DNA of 64,000 bases from contig CASFID010000065.1 in assembly GCA_949294665.1 (NCBI GenBank), positions 1-64,000 of the forward strand, written 5' to 3'. Below the pieces are notes generated by a model. It did not search any database. It had not been told where the DNA came from and was given only the letters and a program-made list of their open reading frames with translations. Source of the stretch: an uncultured Eubacteriales bacterium. GTDB taxonomy: Bacteria > Bacillota > Clostridia > Lachnospirales > Lachnospiraceae. Position numbers and translations under genes: made by a program. Shown here piece by piece: positions 432 through 54,490 of this stretch (position 1 is its first letter; each line of letters opens with the position of its first letter).

Positions 432-2108
432 TTATTTGTCTTTTCTTGACATCAATACTACCGTCTCAACGGTATTACCCTTTTCCCACAAAAGCCGCCT
501 GATCTCACGACCATTACGGTATATCGGAAAATTAAACTCTATTGATCTCAAAGGCATCTCTGACTCACCATTAGGGTATATCTGAATTTCCTTTATCAGA
601 TAAGTAATAATGCTTTTCTTTTCCTCATCACTTATTCTATCATAGAGCTTTCCGAAGTTCAGCATGATTTTGTAAATGTTATCAAGCGTAATTGCTTCCA
701 TTTCAATCGAGCTTCTCCGTAATTTCGCATCCTCAATGCGTTCCTCAAGTTCTACAATGGTATCATACAGACCATCAAGCCTCAATGTCATGTCGTGAAG
801 TTTTCTTTCCCGATAGCGGGCATCAACAGGTAAATTGTCAATCTCCCGTTCCAAACGGGCTTTATTCAAATCGACCTCTTTTAATTTGCTTTCATAATTC
901 TCAAGTTCCTTATCAATAGCTGTAGTATCTATTTGTATGCCAATTCGTTTTTCTATTTCTTTAGCAAAATATTTATCACTTACCAACTCCTTAACTGCCT
1001 CAATTACAAGAGGCTCAATATCTGTTTTCCTCAAAGATGCTTTATACTCACAGTGACGCCCTCTCTCTTGTTTGTTCCTGCCACATATATAATAGTAGAC
1101 TTCCTTATATGTGCCATCTTTGTTTGTCCATGCGTGTTTATTTGTATACATGGAACTTCCGCAAAGAGGACATTTTAACACTCCCGTTAAAAGATGCGCT
1201 CTGTCCTTGCCAACTTTTGAAGGCTGCTTAATTCCCGTTGCCAGTCGCTTTGCATGGACTTTTTGCCACAATTCTTCACTGACTATTCCCTCATGCAGCC
1301 CTTCCTCTAAAATATAATCGTCTGCATGAACTTGCTTATATTCATTCTTTGTTCCTTTGACCTTTTCTCTTGTTCTTCTGCCATAAGCAATCTTCCCACA
1401 GTAAACTGGATTATCTAATATCTGGCGTATTAGATGACTGCTCCATGTTTCTAATTTTCCATTTTGACGAGGTATCTTTTTTATCCCCTGCAAATTAAGA
1501 TACTTTGCAACTCCGCCAAGTCCTATATCTGAATTTCCAAATTTATCAAAGATAATTCTGATTGCTTCTGCTTCTTTTTCTTCTATTAAAAGCTGATTGT
1601 CTTTCAGATAATATCCGTATGGAGCGAAACCACCATTCCACCCACCTTGTCGTGCTTTTTCTCTACGCCCATTCATTGTCTGTTCAATGATATTTTCTCT
1701 CTCAATTTCTGCAACTGCCGACAGAACAGATATTAGGAGTTTTCCGCTTGTCTGGGATGAGTCGATACCTTCTTCAATACAGATAAGATTAATCCCATAG
1801 GATTGTACAAACTCCAACGAGTTAAGAATATCCGCTGCATTTCTGCCAAAACGAGAAAGTTTATACACCAGAATATAATCAATCTCCAATCCGTTTTTTA
1901 TATCCGAAAGCATTTTTTTGAAAGCAGGTCGCCCTTCAATAGATTTTCCTGATTTTCCTGCATCCTCATAAATGCCAATAACCTGCATTTCTTCCCGGTC
2001 AGCAAACCTCTTTAAACTATTTTTCTGTCCTTCCAGACTATATCCGTCCACCTGCATTTCCGTGCTTACTCTCGGATACAGGACACATTTCTTACCTTCT
2101 CTATTCAT
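432..2108 (-). CDS. Large serine recombinase (ICE integrase)
   Basis: A 558-aa large serine recombinase that should catalyse integration and excision of the element. The resolvase-type catalytic domain occupies about residues 1-150: Tyr-Pro-Arg-Val-Ser carries the nucleophile Ser15, and YKLSRFGRN carries conserved arginines. A recombinase domain follows (about 165-280), then a zinc ribbon (CPLCGSS, later CGRNKQERGRHC) and a coiled coil rich in Glu/Lys/Leu (about 395-470). The ATG follows GGAGG at 7 nt. The last 7 residues lie outside the element core and belong to the chromosome, so the C-terminus depends on whether the element is integrated. In the circle the frame should continue into the 110-aa tail now attached to RlmD, giving about 661 aa. 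Family assignment is firm; the tail exchange is inferred from the att alignment. Confidence 0.93.
   Translation of the reverse strand: MNREGKKCVLYPRVSTEMQVDGYSLEGQKNSLKRFADREEMQVIGIYEDAGKSGKSIEGRPAFKKMLSDIKNGLEIDYILVYKLSRFGRNAADILNSLEFVQSYGINLICIEEGIDSSQTSGKLLISVLSAVAEIERENIIEQTMNGRREKARQGGWNGGFAPYGYYLKDNQLLIEEKEAEAIRIIFDKFGNSDIGLGGVAKYLNLQGIKKIPRQNGKLETWSSHLIRQILDNPVYCGKIAYGRRTREKVKGTKNEYKQVHADDYILEEGLHEGIVSEELWQKVHAKRLATGIKQPSKVGKDRAHLLTGVLKCPLCGSSMYTNKHAWTNKDGTYKEVYYYICGRNKQERGRHCEYKASLRKTDIEPLVIEAVKELVSDKYFAKEIEKRIGIQIDTTAIDKELENYESKLKEVDLNKARLEREIDNLPVDARYRERKLHDMTLRLDGLYDTIVELEERIEDAKLRRSSIEMEAITLDNIYKIMLNFGKLYDRISDEEKKSIITYLIKEIQIYPNGESEMPLRSIEFNFPIYRNGREIRRLLWEKGNTVETVVLMSRKDK
456..470. 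other. attL core of the ICE
   Basis: The 15-bp sequence tactaccgtctcaac is identical to 53144-53158 and in the same orientation. With one mismatch the match extends three bases leftward (453-470 against 53141-53158). On the minus strand it encodes Val-Glu-Thr-Val-Val in the last codons of the serine recombinase. Serine recombinases join sites through a short identical core, so this is the expected form of an attachment site. The downstream codons (Leu-Met-Ser-Arg-Lys-Asp-Lys-stop) are probably the native C-terminus of the chromosomal rlmD. Confidence 0.88.
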
Positions 2109-2148
2109 TTTGCACCTCCATATAAATCAGGGAAATATGATATGTAAA

Positions 2149-2167
2149 GCTGCGTAAACTACGCAGC
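2149..2167 (-). terminator. Short hairpin at end of small ORF
   Basis: An 8-bp perfect stem (gctgcgta / tacgcagc) with a 3-nt loop overlaps the stop codon of the 50-aa ORF and is followed, on the minus strand, by TTTACATATC. It may end transcription of the mazF-like unit before the recombinase gene. The U-tract is weak. Confidence 0.4.
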
Positions 2168-2311
2168 ACAATCCAATTCATTTAAAACACTCTTTCCATA
2201 TTTCTCAACTATCTGCACCATTGTATTGATAAAAAAATCATAAGCTTCCTTTTCACTCTGACAATGGTCTGAATGTTGCTTTGCGATATTCATGCGTTTT
2301 TGATCTTCCAT
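2159..2311 (-). CDS. Small protein downstream of MazF-like toxin (50 aa)
   Basis: An unrecognised 50-aa protein starting MEDQKRMNIAKQHSDHC and ending LNELDCAA. It has an excellent ribosome binding site (GGAGG, 7 nt before the ATG). It is predicted to be helical and soluble, with no membrane segment. It lies 72 nt downstream of the MazF-like gene and 50 nt before the recombinase. Position would allow an antitoxin or accessory role, but the usual order is antitoxin first and no antitoxin motif is visible. The function is unknown. Confidence 0.6.
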   Translation of the reverse strand: MEDQKRMNIAKQHSDHCQSEKEAYDFFINTMVQIVEKYGKSVLNELDCAA

Positions 2312-2383
2312 CTAAAACCCTCCGTCAAAAGCGGCTGTATGCCTTAATTATAGAAGTGCATTTCGTTTTGTTCCAATGTGCGA

Positions 2384-2776
2384 TTAGACCGTTTTCTGTC
2401 TTTTTACACATTTTTCTTCAGGCGGAATACTCAGTGAAATACTAATGGCAAGAGCCTTATCAACTCTTGCCATTGTACTGCACGGAAGCATTCCCATATA
2501 TTTTGTTAACCTTTGCTTATCAAGTGTCCGTATTTGTTCAAGCAAAATAACTGACTCTTTATCAAGCCCCTTAAAATCCATCACATTGGTATGCGTGGGC
2601 AATTTAACTTTCGAGCATGCCCGACTTGTAATAGCTGCAACTATTACCGTAGGACTGTACCTATTACCCATATCATTTGAAATGATAAGTACAGGGCGTG
2701 TTCCGCCTTGCTCTGATCCTACGACTGGATTGAGATCGGCATAATAAATGTCGCCCCGCTTTATTTTTCTTTCCAT
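2384..2776 (-). CDS. MazF/PemK-family toxin endoribonuclease
   Basis: A 130-aa PemK/MazF fold protein. Family features are visible: [20 protein letters not shown] near the N-terminus, then RPVLIISND and a core ending in [15 protein letters not shown]. MazF enzymes cut single-stranded mRNA and are normally neutralised by a partner encoded just upstream. I chose the ATG at 2776 because GGGAGG lies 9 nt before it; an ATG at 2794 would overlap that ribosome binding site. No canonical antitoxin gene lies upstream, only a 14-bp inverted repeat at 2829-2905, and a 50-aa ORF lies downstream. It may serve to stabilise the element. The fold is confident; toxicity here is inference. Confidence 0.85.
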
Positions 2777-2828
2777 ATGTGTATGACCTCCCATCTTATT
2801 TAGGCAAACACAATCTGCCTATGTAAGC

Positions 2829-2905
2829 AGTCAAACACAAGGGAGTTTTTAAGGTCGAGAGAGTATAAACAATTCTCTGCTTCAATGACCACCTTGTGTT
2901 TGACT
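2829..2905. repeat. 14-bp inverted repeat upstream of mazF-like gene
   Basis: The sequence agtcaaacacaagg at 2829-2842 is the exact reverse complement of ccttgtgtttgact at 2892-2905, with 49 nt between. It lies 53 nt upstream of the mazF-like start codon. It could be an RNA structure in the leader, a protein binding site or a recombination-related site. No homology identifies it. Confidence 0.7.
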
Positions 2906-3316
2906 ATATATGAATAGAAGCATTTTTATTTGTCCTCGACGCCCCAAAATGCTAATGCGCTAAAATGCGCAGGGAAGTCGCCAAACGGTCAGCAGCGAAC
3001 TGACTCCACGGGTGTTTTTCCCCTCTGACGGTCTGCCAGAGCCGCCCTCATTGCCTGCGACGGATTGAGTACCGTTCGGACTGTGACTGGACGGGAGTAC
3101 CATTGTTCTCTTTGTGGGTTATGGCGTAATCGGGAGCTGCCCGATATTTTGAGTCGGTAAAAAATCGCTCACCACCTTTCATCGCTTTTCTGCTTGTCGG
3201 CAGGTCTTGGCGTACCGCTGCACACGCTTATGCTCATCACAATCACAAAGAGGAAGTATTTGGCGAATGGGTATTCACTTTTCAAGGAACATTCCCATTC
3301 TCGCCACACAAGGAAA
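2906..3316. other. Intergenic region without a supported gene
   Basis: About 410 nt between the inverted repeat and the sigma-like gene terminator. It is richer in G+C than its neighbours, but no frame exceeds about 25 codons. Two very short minus-strand frames overlap near 3130-3240, one starting MSISVCSGTPR and one starting with GTG after AGGTG, both too short to support. A 12-codon plus-strand frame (MRREVAKRSAAN) begins near 2965. It may hold a degraded gene or a non-coding RNA. Confidence 0.4.
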
Positions 3317-3348
3317 ATGGGATGAGAGTTTTTTGCCTCTCATCCCAT
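3317..3348 (-). terminator. Terminator of sigma-like gene
   Basis: A 12-bp perfect stem (atgggatgagag / ctctcatcccat) with an 8-nt loop, followed on the minus strand by TTTTCC. It lies just after the stop codon of the sigma-like gene at 3377. Confidence 0.8.
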
Positions 3349-3376
3349 AGTCCTCATATACCTCTATTTCTGGACG

Positions 3377-3805: not shown

Positions 3806-3860
3806 ATTATTCCCTCCAATCTGAATTTTTTTGAAAAATCCAGATTGGTCGGTGGGGAAC

Positions 3861-4499: not shown

Positions 4500-5345
4500 T
4501 CACTTTAATTCTTTTTTACGAAAGGCGAACCACCCCACACAAGATAAAATGATAGTCAATCCGACAGAATATATCGGATAAAACGGCAACATTTCTTCGC
4601 TAAATAACTGTGCGCCCTCGTTTCCTGTATTATCTGATGTAATTACCAAATAAGTCATTAGATTATTTGCTTGACCATTCGGGATTAAACTGTCCGCCGT
4701 CATGTAAATTTGTCTTGCCATTCCACCTATATAATTTGGGTTCGGTATTACTTCTTCACCGATTATTTCCCCTAATTCATTTGTTTGCTCAATCGTGATA
4801 TTTTCAACTTGAAATATAGAAAATTCAAGTCTATTCGTTCCGAAAGCCATCGCAAAGACAATAAGAATACATAAGATTGTTCCGATTGCCTTTTGGGAAA
4901 TCAAACAGCTTATCAAAGTAAAAATTGCAGCGTACACAACACTGTCTAAAAGAAGGCAAATCAATGTCATTAGCATTTTATCCATAGTAGCGTCAGACAA
5001 CAGCGTACTATAACAGCATATAAAAGCAGGGAGTATAAATGCCAACATCATTACCAAACACACAAAAGCGTTTATTATAAGCTCTGAAACAAAAATTGTT
5101 CCTTTTGTGTTACCTACAATCACTTTGTTTCTAATGGTTGCATCGTTATATTCCTGTCCGATAGACAGAGAAACATAAATGCTCATGATTAGAAATAGCG
5201 GTGTCATAAAAAGACCGTCCAGATCATTTTCGGAAACAGAAACAATACCAAAGACAACTCCGCAGACAAACGAAACTCCCAATAAAACCCAAAATAATTT
5301 TTGAACTTTCAGACGATATAGCGCAGCTTTTAACAGCCTATTCAT
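4500..5345 (-). CDS. ABC-2 type permease
   Basis: A 281-aa integral membrane protein with about six hydrophobic segments (LFWVLLGVSFVCGVVFGIV at the start, TIILSCVGWFAF near the end). The pattern matches permeases of LanEG/BcrB-like exporters that pump or dislodge peptide antibiotics. I chose the ATG at 5345, which follows GGAGG and overlaps the ATPase stop (ATGAATAG), over a longer in-frame start at 5372. It pairs with the ATPase at 5338-6252. The substrate is not shown; the nearby two-component system suggests a peptide antibiotic. Confidence 0.82.
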   Translation of the reverse strand: MNRLLKAALYRLKVQKLFWVLLGVSFVCGVVFGIVSVSENDLDGLFMTPLFLIMSIYVSLSIGQEYNDATIRNKVIVGNTKGTIFVSELIINAFVCLVMMLAFILPAFICCYSTLLSDATMDKMLMTLICLLLDSVVYAAIFTLISCLISQKAIGTILCILIVFAMAFGTNRLEFSIFQVENITIEQTNELGEIIGEEVIPNPNYIGGMARQIYMTADSLIPNGQANNLMTYLVITSDNTGNEGAQLFSEEMLPFYPIYSVGLTIILSCVGWFAFRKKELK

Positions 5346-6252
5346 TGTTCTTACCTCCAACAAGGCTAACATAATAGCTTTCTAATGTTTCATCATGTTC
5401 CTGCATAGAAATCAACTCGCCTCCTTCGGTTTCAAGAGCTAAAGCAATTTCAGAGATACTAAATTTTGCAAAAACATTTGCCTGTTTAGCGGACAATATT
5501 TCATACTCCACATTCATTTTGTCGAGAATATGTGCAAGTGTTTGTGTATTTGACACTTCAACACGCATACATTTCCTACAAGCATTTTCTATTTCTGATG
5601 CACTTATCTCTTTTACGATATGCCCGTTATCAATAAATCCATAGTAGGTTGCGATTTTTGATAGTTCATCGAGTATATGGCTTGAAATCAAGACGGTTAT
5701 TTGATGTTCTCGATTTAATTTTAATATCAATTCCCGTATCTCAATTATGCCCTGTGGGTCAAGACCATTTGTGGGTTCGTCCAAAATTAAGAACTCTGGC
5801 TTACCAACCAAGGCTATTGCAATTGCCAATCTTTGACGCATACCAAGCGAAAAGTTTTTTGCTTTCTTTTCCCCAGTTTTTTCAAGTCCAACTAATTTTA
5901 GAATATTTGAAAGTCCGTCAAAAGATGAAAGCCCAAGAATGAGATATTGTTGTTTCAGATTTTCTTCTGCGGTCATGTCAAGGGAAATTGATGGGGTTTC
6001 TACAATAGCACCAATTCTTCTGCGTGATTTTACAATATTTTTGTCGGTGTTTTTTATACCATATAGCGTGTACTCACCAGATGAAGGCTCTTGCAAACCG
6101 CATATTAACCTAATGAGCGTCGTTTTGCCAGCACCGTTTTTACCAACAAAACCATAGATTGCACCTTGCGGAATACTCATGGTAAGCCCGTCTAACGCCT
6201 TGTATTTGCCATATCTTTTTGTTAAAGCAGTTGTTTTCAAAACACACTCCAT
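5338..6252 (-). CDS. ABC transporter ATPase (BcrA/LanF-like)
   Basis: A 304-aa nucleotide-binding subunit. It shows Walker A (GKNGAGKTT, about residue 38), the signature segment (NFSLGMRQRLAIAIAL), Walker B with the D-loop (LILDEPTNGLD) and the switch His (SSHILDELS). The last 90 residues form the C-terminal extension seen in BcrA/drug-resistance ATPases. It overlaps the permease by 8 nt, so the two are one operon. The most likely role is energising export of, or resistance to, a peptide antibiotic. AAAGGA precedes the start. Confidence 0.85.
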   Translation of the reverse strand: MECVLKTTALTKRYGKYKALDGLTMSIPQGAIYGFVGKNGAGKTTLIRLICGLQEPSSGEYTLYGIKNTDKNIVKSRRRIGAIVETPSISLDMTAEENLKQQYLILGLSSFDGLSNILKLVGLEKTGEKKAKNFSLGMRQRLAIAIALVGKPEFLILDEPTNGLDPQGIIEIRELILKLNREHQITVLISSHILDELSKIATYYGFIDNGHIVKEISASEIENACRKCMRVEVSNTQTLAHILDKMNVEYEILSAKQANVFAKFSISEIALALETEGGELISMQEHDETLESYYVSLVGGKNNE

Positions 6253-6356
6253 AAGAATTTTTCCTTTCGTTTGATATAGATGTTAGCTGTTTGAGAAATG
6301 GTAACTCTACATAGACCGAGGTGGCTTTCCGTCGCCACGTTTCTCTTACGCAGAGA

Positions 6357-8726
6357 TTATTCTGTTACTCTAATTTGTTCCACAAGAGAATGTTTTTTTA
6401 GGCTGTTCAACATAAATGCAGTCAATATTACCTGCATGAAAATCAAAAACAGCAAATATCCTAAAACTACGAGCCACGGGAACTCATAAAAGTAGTATGG
6501 GTTAGCTGCTCTTATAGCGTTTACACACAACACGCCCAAGCCAGAGCCAACGCACACAGTAAAAACGGTAGTTATTAGCGCATATATAATACCCTCATAA
6601 CGAAGCATTTGTGCTAACTGCTTTTTACTTAATCCGATTGCCTGTAAAATACCAATCTCCTGTCTCCGTGATAAAAAATTAGTTAATGTCGTGTTTATCA
6701 GATTTATCAAAGAGAAACAAGCAATACAAATCGCAACAATTAGCATTACACTATTCATAAACTGTTGCTGATAAGTATAATAGTTTAGACTTTCTTGAAA
6801 TGTGTAAATTGAAAGTCCGGGATTTTTATCCACAATTTGTAGTAATTGACTTTCAACAGCGGCAGTTTTTTCGTCCTCCGTTCTGATTTCCAAAATGTCA
6901 GTGCAATCGGTTTGCATAATATCATTCATAAGAGTTACAGGCATTGTAAAGCATTTTTTATTTCCGGCATATTGATAATTGCTTACAATCCCCATAACGG
7001 TAAATGTTTCTGTCACATTTTCGCCTGTTGCATTTGTATATTCGATTTCAACAACATCTCCGAGCGAAGCTGAACAGTAGCCATCATCCGCTCGATCTTG
7101 CAGCAAAACTACGCCATATTGAGAAACTAATGTATCATAATCAACAGTTCCCTCAAGCAAATTATCTTCTAATGCAGAAACTTCATCTCTGGAATATCCT
7201 TGAACATTCTTTACTCGTGATCCATTAACATTGCAAACAGCATCGATAGAATACCACCGTTTAATGCCGCTAACACCGTCCAAGAATGTAATCTCATTTA
7301 CAAAATCATCATCAAATATATTCTGTGCTTGTAATTGAGAAAGAGAAATATCATCATTTTCGTTTAATTCAAGCTGATACTCTCCAAATGGAAAACTTTT
7401 TCCTCTTACTTCTGCCGCTCCATTATAGGACACCATAAGTGTAGATACTGTTACGAGCAAAACTCCGCCAATAGATAGCGAAATGATTGTTAAAAGGAAT
7501 TTTCTCTTATTCCTTAGCAAATTAACCTTTGCCAATGCCAACGGAGATATTGTTCGGTGCAACTTATTGCTTTCCTTTGCGCCACCCTGATAGGTGGTAT
7601 ATCTTGTAGCTTCAATCGGAGAAACAAGAGACGCTTTTTTTACAGGAGTGCGAATTGAAAACATTGTAATGGCAAACGCAAACGCTCCTACAACTACCGT
7701 CATAATCAAAGAGGTAAGCCAATTCCATCCATTTGGGATTATGAAATATCCTACAAGATTTCCTAAAATCAAACCAAACGGAATACCAATTAGAGCCAAT
7801 TTTTTGCCTTCAAGATAAACGATTTTCCTGATCTGCTTTTTTGTTGTGCCAATCGTGCGAAGCTGCCCATAGCTTCTGATATTTTCGGCAACGGAAATGT
7901 AAAATATAGAATATATCACAATTCCAGACCCGATAAATGTAACTGCCCCAATCAGAAGATACAAATACATATCGCTACTGAAAAGACCTCTTTCCATAAT
8001 TACAAAATAATCGGAGCGTACAATAACTTGCTCATCAGAGATATTAAAGCTCTTTGCCAACTCATTTGCATAGTCAGTAGCGTCTTTTTCGGACATATTC
8101 TCTGCATTTTTCAGTCCAACATAATAATCTAATGAAGATGTTCCACCATACTGTTGATTAGCATATTCTTTCGATACCATTCCCATGTAACTGCCAATAT
8201 CGCCCATTTCTACATTAATGATACCCGATAAAATAAACTCAATCGTGTTTCCATCTGCAAGGGGAATAGAAATTGTTTGACCAAGCTCTGTGCCATAGCC
8301 CAATTCTTTCAAGAAAGACTTTTGAAGCATAATTTCATTTACGGAAATAGGGATATTTCCGCTATATGTCATTCCTTGTGCTTTAAACATTTCCTCATTT
8401 CCATATTGCAGATAAAAGGTAGAGTTATTCACTTGTTCAGTAGATACAAGTGTAAACTCACCAATCCAGTCAATTTGATCTTGCTCGTATAACTTGTCGC
8501 CTTGTTCCTGTGTTATGTTTGTGAATACAATTTGTGCGGTATCTTTTGTTCGGTTAATAGTTGCTTGTGAAGTTCCAAATCCATAAAGCATAATTGCCAA
8601 TAGCAGAGCTGCTGCAAGCGCAATCGTAACTATTGTAAAAAGATTTCTTTTTCTATTCGCAGCTATACTTCTATTAGATATGCGTTTTACGACAGCTCTA
8701 GTATCGTTTTCAAAAGGATATATCAT
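6357..8726 (-). CDS. FtsX-family ABC transporter permease
   Basis: A 789-aa permease with two FtsX-like halves. The N-terminal membrane anchor (LFTIVTIALAAALLLAIMLY) is followed by an extracellular domain of about 190 residues, three membrane segments, a second anchor near residue 420 (FLLTIISLSIGGVLLVTVS), another extracellular domain and a closing membrane bundle. This is the MacB-like or antimicrobial-peptide type of permease, not the BceB type, which has one large loop in about 650 aa. It ends in IRVTE. The ATPase gene ends 16 nt upstream, so the two form one transporter. Likely substrate: a peptide antibiotic or signal. Confidence 0.85.
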   Translation of the reverse strand: MIYPFENDTRAVVKRISNRSIAANRKRNLFTIVTIALAAALLLAIMLYGFGTSQATINRTKDTAQIVFTNITQEQGDKLYEQDQIDWIGEFTLVSTEQVNNSTFYLQYGNEEMFKAQGMTYSGNIPISVNEIMLQKSFLKELGYGTELGQTISIPLADGNTIEFILSGIINVEMGDIGSYMGMVSKEYANQQYGGTSSLDYYVGLKNAENMSEKDATDYANELAKSFNISDEQVIVRSDYFVIMERGLFSSDMYLYLLIGAVTFIGSGIVIYSIFYISVAENIRSYGQLRTIGTTKKQIRKIVYLEGKKLALIGIPFGLILGNLVGYFIIPNGWNWLTSLIMTVVVGAFAFAITMFSIRTPVKKASLVSPIEATRYTTYQGGAKESNKLHRTISPLALAKVNLLRNKRKFLLTIISLSIGGVLLVTVSTLMVSYNGAAEVRGKSFPFGEYQLELNENDDISLSQLQAQNIFDDDFVNEITFLDGVSGIKRWYSIDAVCNVNGSRVKNVQGYSRDEVSALEDNLLEGTVDYDTLVSQYGVVLLQDRADDGYCSASLGDVVEIEYTNATGENVTETFTVMGIVSNYQYAGNKKCFTMPVTLMNDIMQTDCTDILEIRTEDEKTAAVESQLLQIVDKNPGLSIYTFQESLNYYTYQQQFMNSVMLIVAICIACFSLINLINTTLTNFLSRRQEIGILQAIGLSKKQLAQMLRYEGIIYALITTVFTVCVGSGLGVLCVNAIRAANPYYFYEFPWLVVLGYLLFLIFMQVILTAFMLNSLKKHSLVEQIRVTE

Positions 8727-32655: not shown

Positions 32656-34533
32656 TCACATTCTTTTATACTTCTGTATCTTCTTTATTACTTTTTCGTC
32701 CGTACCCGGCGGTATCGGGCCGTTGTTTGCCATGCGGTAACATTTCCTGCACAGCCAGATCAGATTCTGCACTTTATTTACTTTTTCCATAGGAAGTTTC
32801 GTGTCTATATGATAGCAGTACATCCCGCTTTCTTCGGACAGCCACGTCTTACAGCATTTACATTTGCCTTTATCCCGGTTGTACGCATATTCCCGGTTCA
32901 TATAATACTCGAAATTTGTCAGCCCCTTTGCATACACAGACAGAAGAATGTCTTCCACTGAATTGATGGAAGGTCTGTTGCAGGGAAGTGGCTTCTGTTT
33001 GCTCCGGTAGCGTATATATTTCTGTCTGCCTTCTTCGGTGTACGGCGTCATTTTCTGGTCGAATGGTATGGATTCATATTTACTGTGCGTAATAAACGCC
33101 ATCGTGATTCCAAACCATTTTCCTTCAATGGGGATTGCAAATGTTTTGCTTTTATATCCGGCATGGCGGTGAGGGAGATTACATAGTTTTTCCAGAGGCA
33201 CCTGATATTGGTTATAATGCTTTGGAAACGCATTTTTCCAAACTGCCAGCGCCGTGTTATTGATACGCCTGTCGATTGCGTGGAACGCATGGGAACAGAT
33301 AGACGGCTGTAAGTATTGTGCAATGCCGATAATCATGGCATTTACTTTTTGTATCTGCGCCGCCTGTATATTCCTTTTATCCATCGCCTCTATCTCCCGG
33401 AGTTCTTTAGCGATATTCCTGATTTTCTCTTTCAGGCGTTCCATATCCGGGAGCGGCTTTCCCACCAGATTATCTGTCCATGTTTTCGGGTCTGGCGTTT
33501 TCCGCTTTCTCTCTGCTTTGATTACAAAACCGAGGAAGTGGATTCCCTCTGTCCTCAAATCTGTGACATACGTCTTTTCCTGTGACAATTCCAGTTTCAT
33601 GCGGTGTCTGAAATATTTCGTCAACACCTTTTTCAGCCGGTATGCCTCCCGTTCCGTTGACGTCAGGATTACCCAGTCGTCCGCAAAACGGAAGTTATAT
33701 TTTGGCGTCACGCCAGACCATTTCAGCCTGCGTGTGTCGTTACATTTATGCTTACAATGCCTATGTGGTTCCATATACATTCTGCCGATATACCAGTCAA
33801 AATCATTCAGGTACACATTTGACATCAACGGAGACAAAATCCCTCCCTGCATTGTACCGACCTTTGTGTCATATCTTTGCCTGCCCTCGATGTATCCGGC
33901 TTTTAACATTTCCTGTATCAGCCTGATTACTCTTTTGTCATGGATACCGATTTTCCAGAGCTTGCGCAGGAGAATCCTGTGGTCAATGTTGTCAAAGCAG
34001 CCTTTGATATCGCCTTCTACCGCCCATACGGGCTGGTCTGGAGATTTAGTCGCTGCGTTGATTACATTGATAATATCCCGTACTGCGTGTTTCTGTGCCC
34101 GGTATGGGCGGAAGCCGTAACTATGAGGATAGAACTTTGCCTCACAGATTGGCTCCAGGATGATACGCATACATTCCTGCATGATCCGCTCAAGGATTGT
34201 AGGAATCCCTAATGGGCGCATTTTCCCGTTCTTTTTCGGGATATACACCCTTCTGGCAGGTTTGGGTTTATAGTTTCTGAAATTGTTTTTTATCAGTGCA
34301 ATTAAATCTTCTTTTGGCATTTGCAGGTATCTGTCCATTTTCACACGGTCAACTCCGGCTGTTTTACTGCCTTTGTTGGACTTGATGTTATGAATTGCGG
34401 TTACAATCGTCACTTCACTGACCATTGCTTCCAGCAGCCCGGTAAAACCGGCTCCCTGCTTCGATTTCTCATACAGGAAATCCAATGTCTGCTTTAATTC
34501 CGCTTCCGTTGAAAATCTGACGTTCAAATGCAC
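32656..34533 (-). CDS. ltrA: Group II intron reverse transcriptase/maturase with HNH domain
   Basis: A 625-aa intron-encoded protein. The reverse transcriptase domain spans about 60-380: fingers motif (KPARRVYIPKKNGKMRPLGI), MQGGILSPLMSN, and the active site FRFADDWVIL (FADD in place of YADD). A maturase domain follows, then a C-terminal HNH endonuclease (CKCCKTWL ... HIDTKLP ... LIWLCRKCYRMANNG). All parts look intact, so the intron may be mobile by retrohoming. The start is probably a GTG, after GAGGTGATAG. Confidence 0.93.
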   Translation of the reverse strand: MHLNVRFSTEAELKQTLDFLYEKSKQGAGFTGLLEAMVSEVTIVTAIHNIKSNKGSKTAGVDRVKMDRYLQMPKEDLIALIKNNFRNYKPKPARRVYIPKKNGKMRPLGIPTILERIMQECMRIILEPICEAKFYPHSYGFRPYRAQKHAVRDIINVINAATKSPDQPVWAVEGDIKGCFDNIDHRILLRKLWKIGIHDKRVIRLIQEMLKAGYIEGRQRYDTKVGTMQGGILSPLMSNVYLNDFDWYIGRMYMEPHRHCKHKCNDTRRLKWSGVTPKYNFRFADDWVILTSTEREAYRLKKVLTKYFRHRMKLELSQEKTYVTDLRTEGIHFLGFVIKAERKRKTPDPKTWTDNLVGKPLPDMERLKEKIRNIAKELREIEAMDKRNIQAAQIQKVNAMIIGIAQYLQPSICSHAFHAIDRRINNTALAVWKNAFPKHYNQYQVPLEKLCNLPHRHAGYKSKTFAIPIEGKWFGITMAFITHSKYESIPFDQKMTPYTEEGRQKYIRYRSKQKPLPCNRPSINSVEDILLSVYAKGLTNFEYYMNREYAYNRDKGKCKCCKTWLSEESGMYCYHIDTKLPMEKVNKVQNLIWLCRKCYRMANNGPIPPGTDEKVIKKIQKYKRM

Positions 34534-44580: not shown

Positions 44581-47500
44581 TTAGTCCTCCTTTTTCTTTC
44601 TGTTCTTAAAGCCTACAAAGCCTAAAACGCCTGCGCCGATCACGGAAACAGCCGCCAGACCTGCCCAGAGCGCAGGGTTGAAGTCATCGCCTGTTTTCGG
44701 GGTTTTCCTCAGCTCATTGTGCATCTCCACAATCGTTGTGGCATCGGTCTTAACGGTTGCCTGCTTTTCGGCGGGCAGGATATAGCCTGCGGAAGCATCA
44801 TCGCTGACCTCGGACACGGTGTATTCGCCAATGCGCAAGCCTTCAATGAGGATTTCGCCATTGGTATCCGTTTTAAAGGTCTGGTCATAATCTTTTCCAG
44901 TCACTCGGAAAGAGAAGCCCTCCACCTTACCGTCAGAGGAAGTCTTGACGATCTTTAAAGAGCCTTTCTGGGCTGCGTTGATAAAGCCGACGCCTGCCTC
45001 ATTCTCAACCGTATAAGTCTTTCCGTCCTCCTCAATGGATACAGGATAGACATTTGTATCGAGCAGGAAGCCTTCGGGAGCTTTTGTCTCACGGACAAGA
45101 TACTTGCCATAGCGCAGGTCGCTCATCTGGTACACGCCACCGCCAAGCTCCGCCATTTCTCCGAGCAACTCGTCGCCATCGTCCAGTTTTCCGTCTCCGT
45201 TCTTGTCGGCATAGACTTCAAAGACCGCACCCGTCAGCTTGTTGTCGGGATAGTCTTCGTCCACCTTTGTCAGTTCGATGCTGCCCGTGATGAACTCGTT
45301 GACAAGCTCGACCTCCACAACTTCGTCCACGCTTCCAATGGTCACGGGGATTTCCTCATCGGAGAGTACAAAACCTGTCGGGCTTTCGATCTCACGGATA
45401 ATCCAAGTCCCGTAAGGCACTTTCTCAAAAGAAAAACTACCGTCATCTGCTGATGTGGTAGTCTGGATCGCTGTTTCGGCTGTAAATTCCTCCGTACCTG
45501 TCTTAAAGATACCGATGAGCGCACCGCCTAAAGCGTTCCCGTCCTCATCGTACTTCTTACCACTGACTGAGCCATAGATCAGCTCGTTTTCAATGGCTTC
45601 TCCCTCGTTGGCAGTGATGGACACCAGTGCGGTTTCCTGACCTGCGTACTCAAAGACAACAGGGTATTTGGTATCGTCTTTCAGATAAGCGGAGTTCGTG
45701 CTGATTTCCTGCACATAGTAGCTGCCCATCGGCAGGTCGCTGATGGCTTTCCCGTGACCGTTCTCGTCAAGAGTAATGACCTCAATCAGACCGTCAGCGG
45801 GAATTGTAGTACCGTCGGCGGCTGTCAGTTCCTCCGCAGCGTAAAGCCCAAAGGAAACATCAAAGATTTCCCCGTTATTGCCTACGCCATAGGCTTCGTC
45901 CACCTCAAGGCTTTTGATGAGGTCGATTTCCACCTTCTGTCTCTCATTGTAGAAGCTCGTAGAAGTTTCTGTGACCGCAACCTCCTGACCTGCGTACACA
46001 AGCTCCACGGTATGCGTTTCCTCATTCAGCACCATTCCATACGGGGCTTTGGTTTCCCTGACTTCATATCTGCCAAGATACAGCTCCTTGCTCTTTGCTG
46101 TACCGTCCGCATCTGCGGTAATCGTGTCCACGACTTCGCCTTTAGAAGCCCTGAGTGTCCCGTCCAGAGTATAGATGTCCTCGGCTGCGGTAATCTCATA
46201 GACAGCTCCCTCAAGCCCACTGGCGGAAAAGATTGGCTGATACAGCCCCTTATCGCCTGACACGGTTGAGAATACCTCGCCCGTCTTTTCCACGGTAATC
46301 GTGCCTTTCTGCGCCACATTTTCCCGTACCACTTCAATAACTGTGATGCCGCTTTCCTCAGCGGAGTCCTCCTGCACCACATCAAAATAGACTGGCTCGT
46401 AGTTCAGCACATATCCATACGGAGCCTGCACCTCTACAAGAGAATATCCCTTCCCGTATTCAAGGGTCTGGGGCGTGATAAGGTCACCGTCCGCTGTGGT
46501 ATAGAAAGTGTCAATGGTCGTCACTTCGGGGTAGGTGTAGGTCATCGTCACAAGCTCGCCATTGGGGTCATAAATCTGGAAGCCTGCCCCGGCATAGGGG
46601 ATGGTGTTGCCCGTTTCGGCGTCCTTTTTCACAATCTTGATATAGCTTTCAAAGTTGGCGTTATTGATCAGATAGCGGTAGGTCTGACCGTCAGAATTGA
46701 TAAACACATCAAATGGTTTCATCAGCTCACGACCTTCCCATCCAGAAGTCTGCTTCACGGTATAGATACCGTAAGGCAGGTCTTTCGTCTGGGCAAAACC
46801 ATTCTCGTCGCAGGTCAGGATGTCACGCTCGCTTTCCTTTGCGTCCCCATAGCTGCCTGCGGATTTCAAAAAGACTTCAAAAACTGCGCCTTCTTCGGGT
46901 GTCTCAATCTGGGTTTCCCCGTCATCCGTGTGCTTGATGACAGCGATATTGCCCTTGATGACCTGCTCATTCACATCATTTTTCGTGGTATTCCGTTCCA
47001 CCGTGTAAAGCTCCGGCTCTGCGCCCACATGGTGGATCGTCTCATCGAGCAAATATCCCTCGGACGGGCTGATTTCACGGATGCTCCAGTCGTCGCCGCA
47101 CACATAATAGTCGGTGGTAAACTGCCCGTTCTCGTCCGTGGTGTAGGTGTCAATCAGTTCCTCGCCTTTATAAATACCGTAAACTGCGCCCGCAAGGGAA
47201 GCGTCGCCCTGCGGCGTTCCCGTTTCCGCATCGGTCTTTGTCACGGTCACATTGAATTTCTTGAGGATGTTGGTAAAGCTGCGCTCCGTGACCTTGTTCC
47301 ACTCAATGGGTGCGGTCTGGGATGCGGGAACGACATAGCGGACAGCGGTATCCACTTCCTCAAGGACATACGGGGTGTTGCCGCTGATGAGGACATTCTC
47401 AAATCTTGCGACTCCATCCGCATCGGTCACAGCGTACTCATCCACCGCAAGCCCGCTTAAGGAGGTCCCGTACAGATGGAAGGTCACGCCTTCCACAAGA

Positions 47501-48726
47501 CTGTCCTCGGAAGTCTTTACCACCTCAAGGCTGCCACGCTTCAAGGTGTTATTGAAGTTGACCGTGGTGGTCTTGCCGCCGATGAGCGTGATGGTCTGGG
47601 TTTCCTGCGGCTCATATTTGTCGATGGACTGCTCCGTCACGGTGTAAGTGCCGGGGAATAATCCCTCTACGGTAATGTTGCCATTCTCGTCCGTGGTAAC
47701 GGTCTTGTTAAAGTTCTTTTCGCCTTTGATGACAAAGGAGATGCCCGCAACCACGCCATCCTCGGAAGTCTTTTTCAGGGCAATCGTGCCAGTGGGCGTC
47801 TCCACATTCAGGTATGCCCGCACAGCGTCGGCATTTTCCACGCCCGTGACTACATCCTGCAGGTTAGGGTCGCCATAGGCGATCATCTTTGCGCTGCTGC
47901 TGACGGTCGGCACATTGCTCCTTGTGGCAGTAATGCGTACCGACCCGTCAAAGGCGGTTTCCGATGTGATAATGAGCTGATTGCCGGACTTCGCCACGCT
48001 TACCTTTCTGTCGGACGAAGCAAAGGAATACTCGGACAGTACACCGTTATTGTCGGTCAGGGTCAGCGTGTATTTCCCATCCTGATAGGAAAGCTCTTTT
48101 GTGATGTCATTTGCACCGCCCGACATAAAGCTCGGTATGGTGTTGTGCCTGCTCATCAGGGACACGATCTGGTTGTAGACCTCCACAGCACCGCTGTTAG
48201 GATAGTTCGAGCCAAAGTGCAAGCTGTATGCTTTCTGGCTCGTCTGCTGATAAGAGCCGGTAGACTCCCTGCATCCCGTCACAAACTCCCAGATGAGGGT
48301 CTGGGTGGCAAGCCACTTTTCATCATCGCTGCCGGAAAGGTTGTTACGGTTGCCCTGATATCCATAGAGAAGGGCAAGCCCTACCGCTTTTTTCTGGTTG
48401 GCGGAGAGGGCGTTCCAAGTCTCGGATGAATTTTTCTTTAAGGTATTTCCCGTTCTTAACGGGACACCCGGCTGAATACAGAACGCATCATCGCCATCCA
48501 CATACATACGGTATTTATAATTTCCAGTGCCGCCTGCGGTGTATCCGTCAAAGACTGCACTGGAATTGTACCGCATCGCATTTCCGTTCCTGTCATAAGT
48601 GTGGGTAAAGGAAATCGTGCCTATATCTCCCGCAGCAAACGCCGTGGTCGCAGGCAGTACGGACAGCGTTGTGACCGCAGCCATCAGAACAGCCGCAGCC
48701 CTTTTGAATAATTTAGGGAATTTCAT
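44581..48726 (-). CDS. Giant surface adhesin with thioester and CnaB repeats
   Basis: A 1381-aa cell-wall protein. A signal peptide (about 1-32, ending AFA) is followed by a thioester domain with Cys in DDAFCIQPGV and Gln in WLATQTLIWEF. Then come about ten CnaB/SpaA-type beta domains starting near residue 310 (openings such as GTIALKKTSEDG, GSLEVVKTSEDS, GSIELTKVDEDY, GSLKIVKTSSDG), which usually form internal Lys-Asn bonds. The end is a sortase signal TPKTG, a membrane helix and a basic tail. Such proteins bind host or partner surfaces; in an ICE it may hold mating cells together or promote colonisation. The sortase B gene at 14267 may anchor it. Confidence 0.88.
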   Translation of the reverse strand: MKFPKLFKRAAAVLMAAVTTLSVLPATTAFAAGDIGTISFTHTYDRNGNAMRYNSSAVFDGYTAGGTGNYKYRMYVDGDDAFCIQPGVPLRTGNTLKKNSSETWNALSANQKKAVGLALLYGYQGNRNNLSGSDDEKWLATQTLIWEFVTGCRESTGSYQQTSQKAYSLHFGSNYPNSGAVEVYNQIVSLMSRHNTIPSFMSGGANDITKELSYQDGKYTLTLTDNNGVLSEYSFASSDRKVSVAKSGNQLIITSETAFDGSVRITATRSNVPTVSSSAKMIAYGDPNLQDVVTGVENADAVRAYLNVETPTGTIALKKTSEDGVVAGISFVIKGEKNFNKTVTTDENGNITVEGLFPGTYTVTEQSIDKYEPQETQTITLIGGKTTTVNFNNTLKRGSLEVVKTSEDSLVEGVTFHLYGTSLSGLAVDEYAVTDADGVARFENVLISGNTPYVLEEVDTAVRYVVPASQTAPIEWNKVTERSFTNILKKFNVTVTKTDAETGTPQGDASLAGAVYGIYKGEELIDTYTTDENGQFTTDYYVCGDDWSIREISPSEGYLLDETIHHVGAEPELYTVERNTTKNDVNEQVIKGNIAVIKHTDDGETQIETPEEGAVFEVFLKSAGSYGDAKESERDILTCDENGFAQTKDLPYGIYTVKQTSGWEGRELMKPFDVFINSDGQTYRYLINNANFESYIKIVKKDAETGNTIPYAGAGFQIYDPNGELVTMTYTYPEVTTIDTFYTTADGDLITPQTLEYGKGYSLVEVQAPYGYVLNYEPVYFDVVQEDSAEESGITVIEVVRENVAQKGTITVEKTGEVFSTVSGDKGLYQPIFSASGLEGAVYEITAAEDIYTLDGTLRASKGEVVDTITADADGTAKSKELYLGRYEVRETKAPYGMVLNEETHTVELVYAGQEVAVTETSTSFYNERQKVEIDLIKSLEVDEAYGVGNNGEIFDVSFGLYAAEELTAADGTTIPADGLIEVITLDENGHGKAISDLPMGSYYVQEISTNSAYLKDDTKYPVVFEYAGQETALVSITANEGEAIENELIYGSVSGKKYDEDGNALGGALIGIFKTGTEEFTAETAIQTTTSADDGSFSFEKVPYGTWIIREIESPTGFVLSDEEIPVTIGSVDEVVEVELVNEFITGSIELTKVDEDYPDNKLTGAVFEVYADKNGDGKLDDGDELLGEMAELGGGVYQMSDLRYGKYLVRETKAPEGFLLDTNVYPVSIEEDGKTYTVENEAGVGFINAAQKGSLKIVKTSSDGKVEGFSFRVTGKDYDQTFKTDTNGEILIEGLRIGEYTVSEVSDDASAGYILPAEKQATVKTDATTIVEMHNELRKTPKTGDDFNPALWAGLAAVSVIGAGVLGFVGFKNRKKKED

Positions 48727-50692: not shown

Positions 50693-50699
50693 TCCGCAG

Positions 50700-50742: not shown

Positions 50743-50755
50743 AAATCTTCAATAT

Positions 50756-51285: not shown

Positions 51286-51410
51286 ACGAGCCACCTCCGT
51301 TTCTTCACTTTCATTATATGTGGGAACGGAAAGCAGCTCAAATGTGCAATCTTGGTAAGAAGTTCCCTCTAATATTTTCAAAGCTGCTTTATTACAAGAA
51401 ACTAAATCTA

Positions 51411-52709
51411 TTATAAACTTCCTCCATCCAAATACTGAATAGCTGTCGAAACCAATGCTAAACATCGTTTGTAAAAATACTTATAATGCCTTTTATCCTG
51501 AATATCTGTTTTTGTCGTTTCATGATGCCTAATTCTAAAATTATTACCAAGCAAAGTAAGCTCATGAAACTCTTTCCCAAATAAATCTATAAATGGCTGT
51601 TGATTATTGCTCATATCCATTACAATTTTATTCGCAGACTTCTTTTTATCTATGGTTGGAGAGCAGTAATATGTCTTTAATCTCTCAAAAGCATCCCAAA
51701 GTTTTTCTACCGCTATTTGCAAATTATTCTCATCATAGTATTTTGTTGCTTCTTGCAACAATTCTTTTAATCCTGCTTCTTGAACAGACAAAAGTGAGTT
51801 TTTACTCATCTGAATATCAATTACATTAGAAATCTTTCCACTTTCAAGTTTTAGAGGCAATTCATTTAATCTCAATATTGAATTTATTTGACTTTCAAAA
51901 TCATCAGAACTTCTATGCCTATAAAAAAACTCTATTGCATCCAAAACACAAAACGGAGAATTAGCCAGAATAAAATCGTGCAAATCAGCAGTTTCAATGT
52001 ATTCGTTCTTGGAATTATAGCATTTTGGTATATAAAACTGCCTTATATCATCAAAAACATCTACTGCTACTGTAGTATTATAGTTCCATCCCGTCTCAGT
52101 AGTTGCTTGATATTCAATATTATTTCGTTCCAAAAACTGATAAATCTGATTTCTGGCTTTTTTCTTTATGGATAATGTTATCTTTTTTTCTTTTATTTCT
52201 TTTGCATGACGTTGAGAATATGGAATAAACAAAGCGTTTTCTTCTTTCTGATATACTCTCCATCCATAAACATCTCGATTAGATACCTTATTAGCAGGAT
52301 AAAGTTCATATCCATCATTTTGCAATAGCCTATTGATCTCTGCCAAAAATTCTTTCCAGTAACCCTTTTCATATCTAACAGCAGGATGAAATACTTCACA
52401 AAGAAATTTCAGATATATCTCATCTTCGCCATTCTGTAAACCAAACCGTTCATCTTCAAAAACCCAACAATACGGATAATCATCGTTGTTAACTGTATGT
52501 TGCCATATATCCTGCTCTGCATTTTCATATCTCGAATCAGTGCTTGGCATATTCCCTAAATCATACATCCTTTTAAGAAAAGCTATTTCTTCAATCCTAC
52601 CAAAATAATGATAAATAACTGTCTTAGTATCAAAAAATTCATTTATTTCCAATCCATTTCGGAATAAGTCCAAAATATCTCGCTTCGTTATCTCCGTAAT
52701 TCGTTTCAT
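51411..52709 (-). CDS. AbiJ-like abortive-infection protein
   Basis: A 432-aa protein. The N-terminal 160 residues resemble the AbiJ N-terminal domain 3 (YHYFGRIEEIAFLKRMYDLG, MPSTDSRYENAEQDIWQHTV, CWVFEDERFGLQNGEDEIYL). The C-terminal part is HEPN-like (ATKYYDENNLQIAVEKLWDA, NNFRIRHHETTKTDIQ), with the R-x4-6-H type motif of RNase HEPN domains. It is AT-rich unlike the neighbouring transfer genes and lies at the right end of the element, a usual cargo position. Such proteins stop phage growth by disabling the infected cell. The ATG at 52709 has GGGAGG 5 nt upstream. Confidence 0.78.
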   Translation of the reverse strand: MKRITEITKRDILDLFRNGLEINEFFDTKTVIYHYFGRIEEIAFLKRMYDLGNMPSTDSRYENAEQDIWQHTVNNDDYPYCWVFEDERFGLQNGEDEIYLKFLCEVFHPAVRYEKGYWKEFLAEINRLLQNDGYELYPANKVSNRDVYGWRVYQKEENALFIPYSQRHAKEIKEKKITLSIKKKARNQIYQFLERNNIEYQATTETGWNYNTTVAVDVFDDIRQFYIPKCYNSKNEYIETADLHDFILANSPFCVLDAIEFFYRHRSSDDFESQINSILRLNELPLKLESGKISNVIDIQMSKNSLLSVQEAGLKELLQEATKYYDENNLQIAVEKLWDAFERLKTYYCSPTIDKKKSANKIVMDMSNNQQPFIDLFGKEFHELTLLGNNFRIRHHETTKTDIQDKRHYKYFYKRCLALVSTAIQYLDGGSL

Positions 52710-52774
52710 CTTTTCCTCCCATTGCAATTCCATTTAAATGTATCTATCTTACTCCCATAAAATTTCTACGAAAA

Positions 52775-52804
52775 GAGCATACCACGATTACTAATGGTAT
52801 GCTC
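52775..52804 (-). terminator. Element-borne terminator for chimeric rlmD
   Basis: gagcatacca (52775-52784) pairs perfectly with tggtatgctc (52795-52804), 10-nt loop; the minus strand continues TTTTCGTAG. It lies 6 nt after the new rlmD stop, inside the ICE, so the element supplies both the new 3' end and its terminator. Confidence 0.85.
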
Positions 52805-52810
52805 GCAATT

Positions 52811-54490
52811 TTAGATAACCTCAAAATGTTTCAAAGCGTCTTTAATCGCTTCCGCCTTCTCTGCTGTCGGATGTTTTCTCGGCTGTTTCAATTCTTCTAC
52901 CGCATTAGGGGCATCATACATTGGCAAGCCCAAACTTCTCTTTACCTCCGCTATATAAGCAGTATGTACCTTGAAGCCATATTTCGCTTCTATGTATTCC
53001 TTTATCATTTTGTAGGTAACTCGCTCTTTCGGCTTGTACGCCTCGGCTCTTTTAGAGATATTATCAAGCGGTACTTTGCCCTCTCCCTCGCCAAACTCCA
53101 CTTTTACGCTGATTGTGCTGTCAGGTTTTTTGTGGGAAAGCAGTACTACCGTCTCAACATGCACCGTCTCACAGAACTGATCCACCGCCGTCATCTTCTC
53201 CACCCGGTACCCCGCAAGCTGCATCATCTCCAGATCTCTCGCCAGGCTCGTCATCTTACAGGAGATATACACAATCCGCTCCACTCCATAGTTCAGGATC
53301 TTAGGCAGAGCCTTCGGGTGGATCCCGTCTCTCGGGGGATCCAGCACAATCACATCCGGCTTCTCTTCAATCTGATCCAGTACCTGAAATACATCGCCTG
53401 CTATGAATTTACAGTTGGAAATACCGTTCCTTGCGGCATTTTCCTTTGCTGCCTCTACAGCTTCCTCAACGATCTCCACGCCCACGACTTCCTTCGCAAC
53501 CGGCGCCAGCACCTGACTGATCGTCCCGGTCCCGCTGAAGAGATCAAATACGGTCATATCATGGATATCTCCGATATACTCCCGGACCGTCTCATACAGC
53601 ACTTCCGCGCCCCTTGTATTGGGCTGGAAGAAGGAGAACGGCGTAATCTTGAATTCCAGATCAAGGAGCTTTTCGTAAAAGAAGTCCTGCCCCCAGAGGA
53701 TGCGGGTCTCGTCACTCTTCACCACATCAGAGAGGGAATCATTCAGGATATGGAGGATACCGACGATGCGCCCCTCCAGTTCCAGAGAGAGAAGCTCGTC
53801 CACCAGCGGCTGAAGATCATGCTCTTCCTGTGTGGTAGTCACCAGGTTCACAAGGATCTCTCCTGTTGTATCTCCTCTCCGCAGGAGAAGATGGCGCAGG
53901 TATCCTGTATGCTGCATCTTTTTATAGTAGCTGACGCCCCGCTTTCTGAAATGCTCCAGCACGCACACAAGAATCTCATTCATATCCGCATGCACCAGCC
54001 TGCAGTCCGCTGCTGTCAGGACATCATAAGTGCTTCCTTTTTTATGAAGGCCCAGGGAGAGCGGCCCGTCCTTATACTCATCCCCAAAGGAGAACTCCAT
54101 CTTGTTCCGGTATCCGAACTCTTTCGGGCTTGCCTTTACACCCTCGAAGACATAACTTCCCTTCACTGCCTCATCCATGATACGCCGGATCTGCCCTTCC
54201 TTCATCTTCATCTGTTCTTCATAGGGCATGGTCTGATACATACAGCCGCCGCAGGCGGGAAAGATGCTGCAGACGGGCTCTCTTGTCTCCAGCGGAGACT
54301 TCTCCAGCACCTCAAGGAGCCGTCCCTCCGCATTTCCACGCTTGAATTTATTGATGAGAAAACGCACTTTCTGTCCCGGCATTCCGTTCTTCACCGTGAC
54401 ATACTTGTCCTCCTCAGCAAGATACACGATCCCCTTATTCGGAAAGTCCACTCTCTCTATAGTTCCTTCAAAAATCTGTCCTTTCTTCAT
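52811..54490 (-). CDS. rlmD: RlmD 23S rRNA m5U methyltransferase with ICE-encoded C-terminus
   Basis: A 559-aa protein: 449 chromosomal residues (54490-53144) plus a 110-aa tail (53143-52811) supplied by the element. The body is typical RlmD/RumA: TRAM domain (1-60), Fe-S cysteines (VCSIFPACGGCMYQ, C74, C80, C83), SAM site (VFDLFSGTGTISQVL), DPPRDGIHPKAL and the catalytic Cys in VYISCKMTSL. It methylates a 23S rRNA uridine. The tail (TYKMIKEYIEAKYGFKVHTA, YIAEVKRSLGLPMYDAPNAV) looks helix-turn-helix-like. Before insertion the protein was about 456 aa. The ATG at 54490 has GGAGG 5 nt upstream. The methylase probably stays functional, since insertion falls after the catalytic part. Confidence 0.93.
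   Translation of the reverse strand: MKKGQIFEGTIERVDFPNKGIVYLAEEDKYVTVKNGMPGQKVRFLINKFKRGNAEGRLLEVLEKSPLETREPVCSIFPACGGCMYQTMPYEEQMKMKEGQIRRIMDEAVKGSYVFEGVKASPKEFGYRNKMEFSFGDEYKDGPLSLGLHKKGSTYDVLTAADCRLVHADMNEILVCVLEHFRKRGVSYYKKMQHTGYLRHLLLRRGDTTGEILVNLVTTTQEEHDLQPLVDELLSLELEGRIVGILHILNDSLSDVVKSDETRILWGQDFFYEKLLDLEFKITPFSFFQPNTRGAEVLYETVREYIGDIHDMTVFDLFSGTGTISQVLAPVAKEVVGVEIVEEAVEAAKENAARNGISNCKFIAGDVFQVLDQIEEKPDVIVLDPPRDGIHPKALPKILNYGVERIVYISCKMTSLARDLEMMQLAGYRVEKMTAVDQFCETVHVETVVLLSHKKPDSTISVKVEFGEGEGKVPLDNISKRAEAYKPKERVTYKMIKEYIEAKYGFKVHTAYIAEVKRSLGLPMYDAPNAVEELKQPRKHPTAEKAEAIKDALKHFEVI
53144..53158. other. attR core of the ICE
   Basis: This copy of tactaccgtctcaac is identical to attL at 456-470 and lies in frame in rlmD (Val-Glu-Thr-Val-Val). 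Left of it is element DNA, right of it chromosome. Insertion at this point of rumA is known for several Gram-positive ICEs. Confidence 0.88.

Follow-up and report, generated by a model that had tools for sequence, protein, structure and literature searches.

The integrase gene and rlmD share an in-frame attachment core

The 64-kb stretch analysed here, referred to as the window (positions 1 to 64,000 of contig CASFID010000065.1, from an uncultured Lachnospiraceae bacterium), carries an integrated mobile element whose two attachment (att) sites lie within protein-coding sequence, one in the gene of the element's own integrase and the other in the host gene rlmD (rumA). The features on which the analysis turns are as follows.

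432–2108, minus strand: large serine recombinase (LSR) integrase, 558 aa when integrated (551 element and 7 host codons); Pfam domains, PHROG 95 integrase at E 8.6e-112
432–455, minus strand: host-derived end of the integrase gene, LMSRKDK and stop, probably the displaced native 3′ end of rlmD; 7/10 same-genus RlmD proteins have similarly short ends
456–470, minus strand: attL core, in frame, VETVV
482–493, minus strand: attP arm on the integrase side, 12 bp, coding, symmetric with 53128–53139
52811–54502, minus strand: rlmD (rumA) with element tail, 563 aa; TIGR00479 above cut-off
52814–53143, minus strand: 110-aa element tail, a swappable C-terminal domain of the integrase family (companion LSR homologue, dN/dS, phrog_27283)
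52814–53032, minus strand: 73-aa helix-turn-helix-like tail core as modelled by AlphaFold2 (AF2), with a predicted local distance difference test (pLDDT) score of 78.3
53128–53139, minus strand: attP arm on the tail side, 12 bp, coding
53144–53158, minus strand: attR core within rlmD, in frame, VETVV

The integrase is an LSR: its Resolvase, Recombinase and zinc-ribbon domains all score above the curated Pfam cut-offs, and its residues 53–518 match the SPbeta integrase YokA (PDB 9dxh). The rlmD open reading frame (ORF) scores 291.5 bits against the RlmD equivalog TIGR00479 (cut-off 183.55). An original prediction, made from the letters of the window, had placed one core in frame in both genes, and this is borne out: the 15-bp core (TACTACCGTCTCAAC on the plus strand) occurs exactly twice on the two strands of the window, and both the 558-aa recombinase and the 563-aa rlmD product read it as V-E-T-V-V. 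Past the core, the integrated LSR has 7 host residues after its 551 element residues, and the integrated RlmD has 110 element residues. In a virtual circle the LSR reads through without a break to 551 + 110 = 661 aa, which agrees with the two integrase forms (551 + 7 and 551 + 110 aa) of that prediction; the 661-aa form would be that of the excised circle. At the two ends of the element lies a perfect 12-bp inverted repeat, TTTTGTGGGAAA / TTTCCCACAAAA, with its halves equally distant from the GA dinucleotide in the core, as the attP of an LSR would have, which takes the match of the cores beyond chance. The crossover is probably centred on this GA, within the Glu codon of the core. We regard the basic anatomy, an att site in frame in two genes, as near certain.

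RlmD was matched in 10/12 same-genus genomes searched (labels beginning with L and G denote loci and genomes, respectively). Seven of these ten proteins stop within ~14 residues of the core point (e.g. HVETVVLMSKVEEQDSEKV followed by a stop), and the other three carry element-type tails that are broken (L263), short (L266) or full (L268). The left flank of the window (1–470) matches the same-genus rlmD loci over only ~25 bp at and beside the core, in L264; because the window starts at the contig start, the left host flank cannot be traced further. Genome G000 also holds a second rlmD (contig C36:36909–38261, L278), 90% identical and without a tail, which 5% assembly contamination may explain, and a second copy of the tail (contig C39:27263–27592, L081; 71%) after a short frame.

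With its attachment core within rlmD and within the integrase gene, the element falls among the rumA/rlmD-targeting integrative and conjugative elements (ICEs), and it carries conjugation genes, encoding a TraG/VirD4-type coupling protein and a VirB4-like ATPase.

Integrase C-termini part at the core

A search whose query ended before the core yielded 84 distinct LSR C-terminal stretches, four of which belong to a second type (LSR2, described below). Counted by eye, 76 of the remaining 80 contain the core motif in frame; the exceptions are L174, which runs into a contig end, L229, which has an earlier stop, and L008 and L009, which have HVSTW in place of VETVV. The LSRs of L008 and L009, ~72% identical to that of the window, may have a different target gene. 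An automatic count over 82 complete ORFs assigned 51 to the core, 22 to the domain and nine to neither, the last including L243 and L009 with variant motifs, L229 with its early stop, and ORFs that appear truncated, frameshifted or off-family.

Within clusters of LSRs linked at a body identity of at least 90%, the C-termini diverge at the core. The largest cluster (links of 92–100%) comprises ten LSRs with ten different ends, six of 5–14 residues and four of 98–110. Closely related bodies with and without a tail, the break falling at the core, strengthen the original prediction, as does the homologous domain that a companion LSR has permanently (see below). The short end of L237 (LLSQLKQKPDVSHR) looks more like a broken tail start than a host end. 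One type of tail also ends LSRs whose bodies share only ~40–52% identity with that of the window.

The tail is a selected domain with a permanent counterpart

The tail was matched in 43/250 genomes of a family-level draw (E 1e-10), and a broader profile (E 1e-8) matched 56/295 genomes of an order-level and 8/299 of a phylum-level draw. We collected 224 distinct contexts of the domain, in which it follows RlmD (97), an LSR of the window family (28), a second LSR family without the core (6) or neither recognised partner (93); the loci were fetched via tail, domain, LSR or RlmD searches, which biases these proportions as frequencies.

The six contexts without the core are distinct ORFs of the companion recombinase LSR2, which carries a homologous domain with no att core preceding it. 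Every LSR2 adjoins an LSR of the window family (L247:2405–6081, L241, L243, L224, L240 and L322), the tandem order being LSR2 first. L247 and L241 have a stop-start overlap between the two genes, and in L224 the LSR2 gene is split into two frames. Five of the six neighbouring LSRs terminate at the core, and that of L322 is truncated before it. A profile-profile comparison of four native LSR2 domains with the tail aligned 70 columns at 40% identity (E 3e-16), which suggests that the tail is native to serine recombinases and that the attP of the element splits it from the LSR body.

Substitution rates were estimated on 88 distinct tails that share a start motif and are exactly 110 codons long; of 1500 pairs drawn at random, the 1250 with dS 0.1–2 were used. 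The median dN/dS is 0.047 (dN 0.035, dS 0.79), and it hardly varies with context: 0.044 for LSR-fused (13 tails), 0.048 for RlmD-fused (42) and 0.048 for standalone tails (33). To judge by these rates, the tail is a selected protein domain.

The tail could instead be functionless as a protein, its frame being open merely because the att site has no stop in it. Where an integrase gene runs over its att site, it has to end somewhere beyond, and in five of six LSRs of another family found at this site (family C, see below) the reading frame, a different one, continues for 23–65 nt beyond the tail start. Such passive read-through is scarcely credible in view of a dN/dS of 0.047 at dS 0.79, of the homology to a permanent LSR domain and of the in-frame position of the tail in 25/28 junctions of the window family, and we rejected it on the substitution rates and the native LSR2 homologue.

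Residues 42–106 of the tail match PHROG 27283 (69 aa, function unknown); NCBIfam does not recognise the tail, and its Pfam matches are weak and below cut-off (HTH_33, E 0.13). The AF2 model of the 73-aa core has helices at 7–18, 24–34 and 57–69 (pLDDT 78) and is consistent with a helix-turn-helix, whereas the model of the whole 110-aa tail is poor (pLDDT 64). The earlier description of the tail as helix-turn-helix-like is compatible with this predicted three-helix fold. At an E-value of 1 or below, the tail profile matched no PDB chain, the one that joins YokA to YotN included.

We also considered that the tail is a separate small protein, for example a regulator, translated from an internal start whatever gene lies upstream. 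Indeed, 93/224 distinct domain ORFs have no recognised RlmD or LSR upstream in frame (a few being broken RlmD ends), and the annotation of one plasmid includes a hypothetical protein of 83 aa. Only 50/156 distinct tails, though, contain an internal start that has a simple Shine-Dalgarno match, so that internal translation is unsupported as a general rule and we give this explanation little credence.

Matches to the tail occur in 96 plasmid records, 90 of them from Enterococcus; in the one whose context was examined, NZ_KR936172.1, a standalone tail (L027, 8001–8294) adjoins spw, lsa(E) and lnu(B).

Fused integrase-tail junctions probably lie between stacked elements

We compared arms in seven hand-picked elements with both ends known (the window, G265, G391, two in G319 and two in L119); the assignments in arrays presume that each element spans from its tail to the next LSR. 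In all seven, the LSR arm and the element's own tail arm share an uninterrupted symmetric run of 9–12 bp. Added up, these runs give 71, whereas permuted pairings average 44.9 and 0.48% of the 5040 permutations reach that sum; some other pairings equal or beat it (maximum 77), several elements having a common arm type. At the fused junctions (24 with a complete domain, from 28 distinct LSR contexts), the longest runs are 3–6 bp in 24/24. Since 117/1334 background pairs of an LSR arm with an RlmD-tail arm reach at least 9 bp, the fused junctions look randomly paired and non-cognate.

The genomic arrangements are in keeping with this. On the complete chromosome of G319, an RlmD-tail junction, two LSR-tail junctions and a further tail follow in a row. 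In G391 both ends of the element are present, and an LSR-tail remnant lies 1.3 kb past its integrase; G265 has a single insertion within the 40 kb fetched. We rejected the notion that database LSRs with a tail come from sequenced circles, as none of the 24 fused junctions has matched arms and the stack in G319 is on a complete chromosome. Tailed forms in assemblies thus look like junctions of stacked elements. They show that such a fusion protein can be encoded, yet a tail is no sign of a circle. The original prediction of a state-dependent integrase is upheld in the swap and in the two predicted forms; it is weakened in that integrated arrays contain the tailed form as well, seemingly with a neighbour's tail.

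Other recombinases at the site and its cargo

The site is shared with LSRs of a different family (C) that have the same core and tail (L040/L070, L129, L139, L148, L166 and L285, several junctions being closely alike). The tail is in frame in 0/6 distinct family C junctions, L285 stopping just before it and the other five running past its start in another frame, as opposed to 25/28 in the window family (family A; exceptions L229, L218 and L322), where some of the 25 enter an incomplete tail. In-frame fusion is thus not imposed by the site and is apparently not needed for its use. Both family C and the single tail type on LSRs only ~40–52% identical to that of the window weaken the original prediction.

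Tails also occur in short intervals. In 21 of 26 distinct tail-to-tail intervals of 0.3–9 kb, no LSR was detected by searches for three families, which would miss recombinases of other kinds; the 21 include intervals in L065, L071, L102, L114, L118, L134, L148, L155, L157, L162 and L165, and a complete tail heads 20 of them. The conservation of the tail is therefore not solely due to fusion to its own integrase.

These observations bear on the possibility that the tail serves RlmD, an acceptable or altered C-terminus of the host enzyme making insertion harmless or useful and the integrase fusion being a by-product. The 97/224 contexts on RlmD, the tails kept in 20/21 intervals and the unfused family C LSRs would all fit. 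Against it, RlmD has a short end of variable sequence after the core in 7/10 same-genus genomes, so a short end should be enough for it; RlmD-like ORFs whose tail is frameshifted or cut still occur (L078, L082, L090, L091 and L263); and the homologous domain is permanent on the core-less LSR2 proteins. On balance we find this explanation unlikely, although it deserves some weight.

One or two ORFs each were scanned with PADLOC in 17 of the 21 intervals without a detected LSR (all except L074, L108, L234 and the second L071 interval), and 13 of the 17 gave matches (E < 1e-5), among others to IetAS, PARIS-type AriAB, a type II restriction enzyme, HerA, DUF1016 nucleases (PDC-S02, twice), a PD-T4-6 kinase and a Pycsar cyclase. 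The products in L102 and L118 are ATPases with matches to many families, and the matches in L071, L136 and L318 are weak or partial; the scanned ORFs of L061, L067, L129 and L140 had no PADLOC match. Stacked anti-phage cassettes seem to use the rlmD site as a landing strip.

The remainder of the window's element is as follows, its body as far as covered by a Pfam scan of eight ORFs of the window.

51411–52733, minus strand: first cargo gene past the tail, AbiJ-like candidate anti-phage protein; AbiJ_NTD3 E 2.5e-53 (Pfam), PADLOC PDC-S32
2384–51410, no strand assigned: rest of the element body, with a CHAP protein, ABC/FtsX transporter, helicase, coupling protein, VirB4-like ATPase, intron reverse transcriptase and others

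Within this body lie an ABC ATPase and FtsX-type permease pair (5338–8726), a group II intron reverse transcriptase/maturase (32656–34533) and a 1381-aa protein (44581–48726) that scores above the cut-off as a SpaH/EbpB-type major pilin and just below it for an LPXTG anchor.

A model for the exchange of the domain

The model that we favour builds on what can be read from the sequences themselves: the in-frame anatomy, the swapped C-termini, the homology to a permanent domain, the purifying selection, and arms that match within elements and do not match at fused junctions. In this model, attP would lie in frame between the LSR body and a C-terminal helix-turn-helix-like domain, and the recombinase of the circle would be full length (661 aa). 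Crossover at the GA in rlmD would detach the domain, giving the integrase a short host end and RlmD the domain. If a later related element inserted beside rlmD, as the presumed order of insertion within arrays would have it, its integrase would become fused to the domain of the older element. An integrase would accordingly be tailed when it has a related element on its right, be it its own element (in the circle) or a neighbouring one (in an array), and tail-less beside host DNA. The domain may bind DNA or aid synapsis at P-type arms, and its loss on integration could lower further recombination by the integrated integrase, by analogy with what is reported for Mx8 (see below).

Taken jointly, the propositions that (i) the domain makes contact with att DNA or with the synapse and (ii) its integration-linked loss lowers or alters the activity of the integrase make up the most likely reading, towards which we lean, if only slightly. 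It describes a change of activity linked to integration more than a proven switch of direction; a strict direction switch is possible and less supported, because diverged integrases have one tail type and family C lies at the site unfused.

Direction would be controlled outright if the tail were a built-in recombination directionality factor (RDF), with the fused form favouring attL × attR and blocking re-integration of the circle or array and the short form favouring integration. PDB chain 9dxd joins the related integrase YokA to YotN, which we take to be the RDF of YokA. RDFs are generally integrase-specific, whereas here one tail type sits on diverged LSRs; a built-in RDF would disfavour integration exactly when the circle must integrate; and the YokA–YotN chain is among those that the tail profile failed to match. 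Engineered integrase-RDF fusions are reported to behave in the required way (PMC5737554), but we think a built-in RDF improbable.

Several observations weigh against the domain-loss model that we favour. The unmatched arms at the fused junctions are mostly what random pairing would also give. In the LSR cluster of the window itself, no tailed form was found among five members, whose ends are of 5–27 residues. A Foldseek search of the tail model against the PDB gave no significant match. The equal dN/dS in the three contexts does not tell which partner is under selection, family C junctions are never in frame, and complete tails head nearly all intervals without a detected LSR.

A bolder extension of the model, which is possible though doubtful, is that the integrase reports the state of its att site. 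Having the DNA-binding domain only beside a related element, it would leave a lone insert quiet, while stacked elements would borrow the domain of a neighbour and stay active; traded among diverged integrases, rlmD and recombinase-less cassettes, the domain would then drive integron-like anti-phage arrays at rlmD to grow.

A separate factor is the usual explanation for why serine integrases do not reverse their own reaction; here, the reaction itself alters the protein. Closely related integrases with different C-termini occur naturally, which makes the effect of the domain directly testable. Stacks of short cassettes, of which many carry anti-phage genes, are likewise arranged around this att core in Firmicutes, a good number of these being gut bacteria. 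Should the domain control activity, it would bear on how defence arrays grow and stay put and would suggest a switchable serine integrase for genetic tools.

Comparison with known systems

In staphylococcal cassette chromosome (SCC) elements, which have cassette chromosome recombinases (Ccr), LSR elements and cassettes are stacked at the 3′ end of the rRNA methyltransferase gene rlmH. The best NCBIfam match of the window's LSR is CcrB, but it stays below the Ccr equivalog cut-offs (CcrB 236/900, CcrC 187/900 and CcrA 145/700 bits), and its target is rlmD, whereas insertion at rlmH is generally taken to define SCC. We know of no ccr gene that is split by its att site.

TnpX of Tn4451 is another LSR whose C-terminal region (aa 598–707) is reported to bind DNA (PMC2810336), in keeping with the proposed DNA binding by the tail. 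In the engineered integrase-RDF fusions (PMC5737554) an added protein part shifts the preference of the reaction; these are artificial and permanent, whereas the fusion in the window is natural and would be made and broken by recombination itself, an RDF role of its tail being only a candidate. As an insertion site, rumA/rlmD or its neighbourhood is described in Dehalobacter (PMC11578063) and Erysipelothrix (PMC12785378), and in Clostridioides difficile the site described adjoins a gene for a putative RNA methyltransferase (PMC3158075).

The tyrosine integrase of Mx8 (Myxococcus) has attP in its gene, and integration replaces its 112-residue C-terminus by 13 residues, the modified form being less active (PMC4701971). 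Apart from being a tyrosine recombinase, it differs in that its description, as excerpted there, includes no exchange of a common domain between elements.

The closest known systems are the streptococcal rumA ICEs (Ambroset et al. 2016, PMC4701971). Like the element in the window, they have a single serine integrase with the att site in its gene, and integration reciprocally exchanges the 3′ parts of rumA and the integrase gene; the integrase of the circle differs in length and C-terminus, and a functional difference was proposed. The window's element, in contrast, keeps the frame in both genes and exchanges a conserved domain; the excerpted account mentions neither such a domain nor fused LSRs in arrays. 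The state-dependent tail as a directionality device, which the original prediction had offered as its own inference, was thus partly in print already, the swap and the functional suggestion, citing Mx8, having appeared in 2016. Already published for those ICEs are the exchange between integrase and rumA and the proposal of a functional difference between the two integrase forms (PMC4701971). The conserved domain, the companion LSR and mixed LSR-tail fusions were not found in the open-access literature searched, and new relative to the streptococcal ICEs are the in-frame, swappable conserved domain and the tail-headed cassettes without a detected LSR, many of which carry anti-phage genes.

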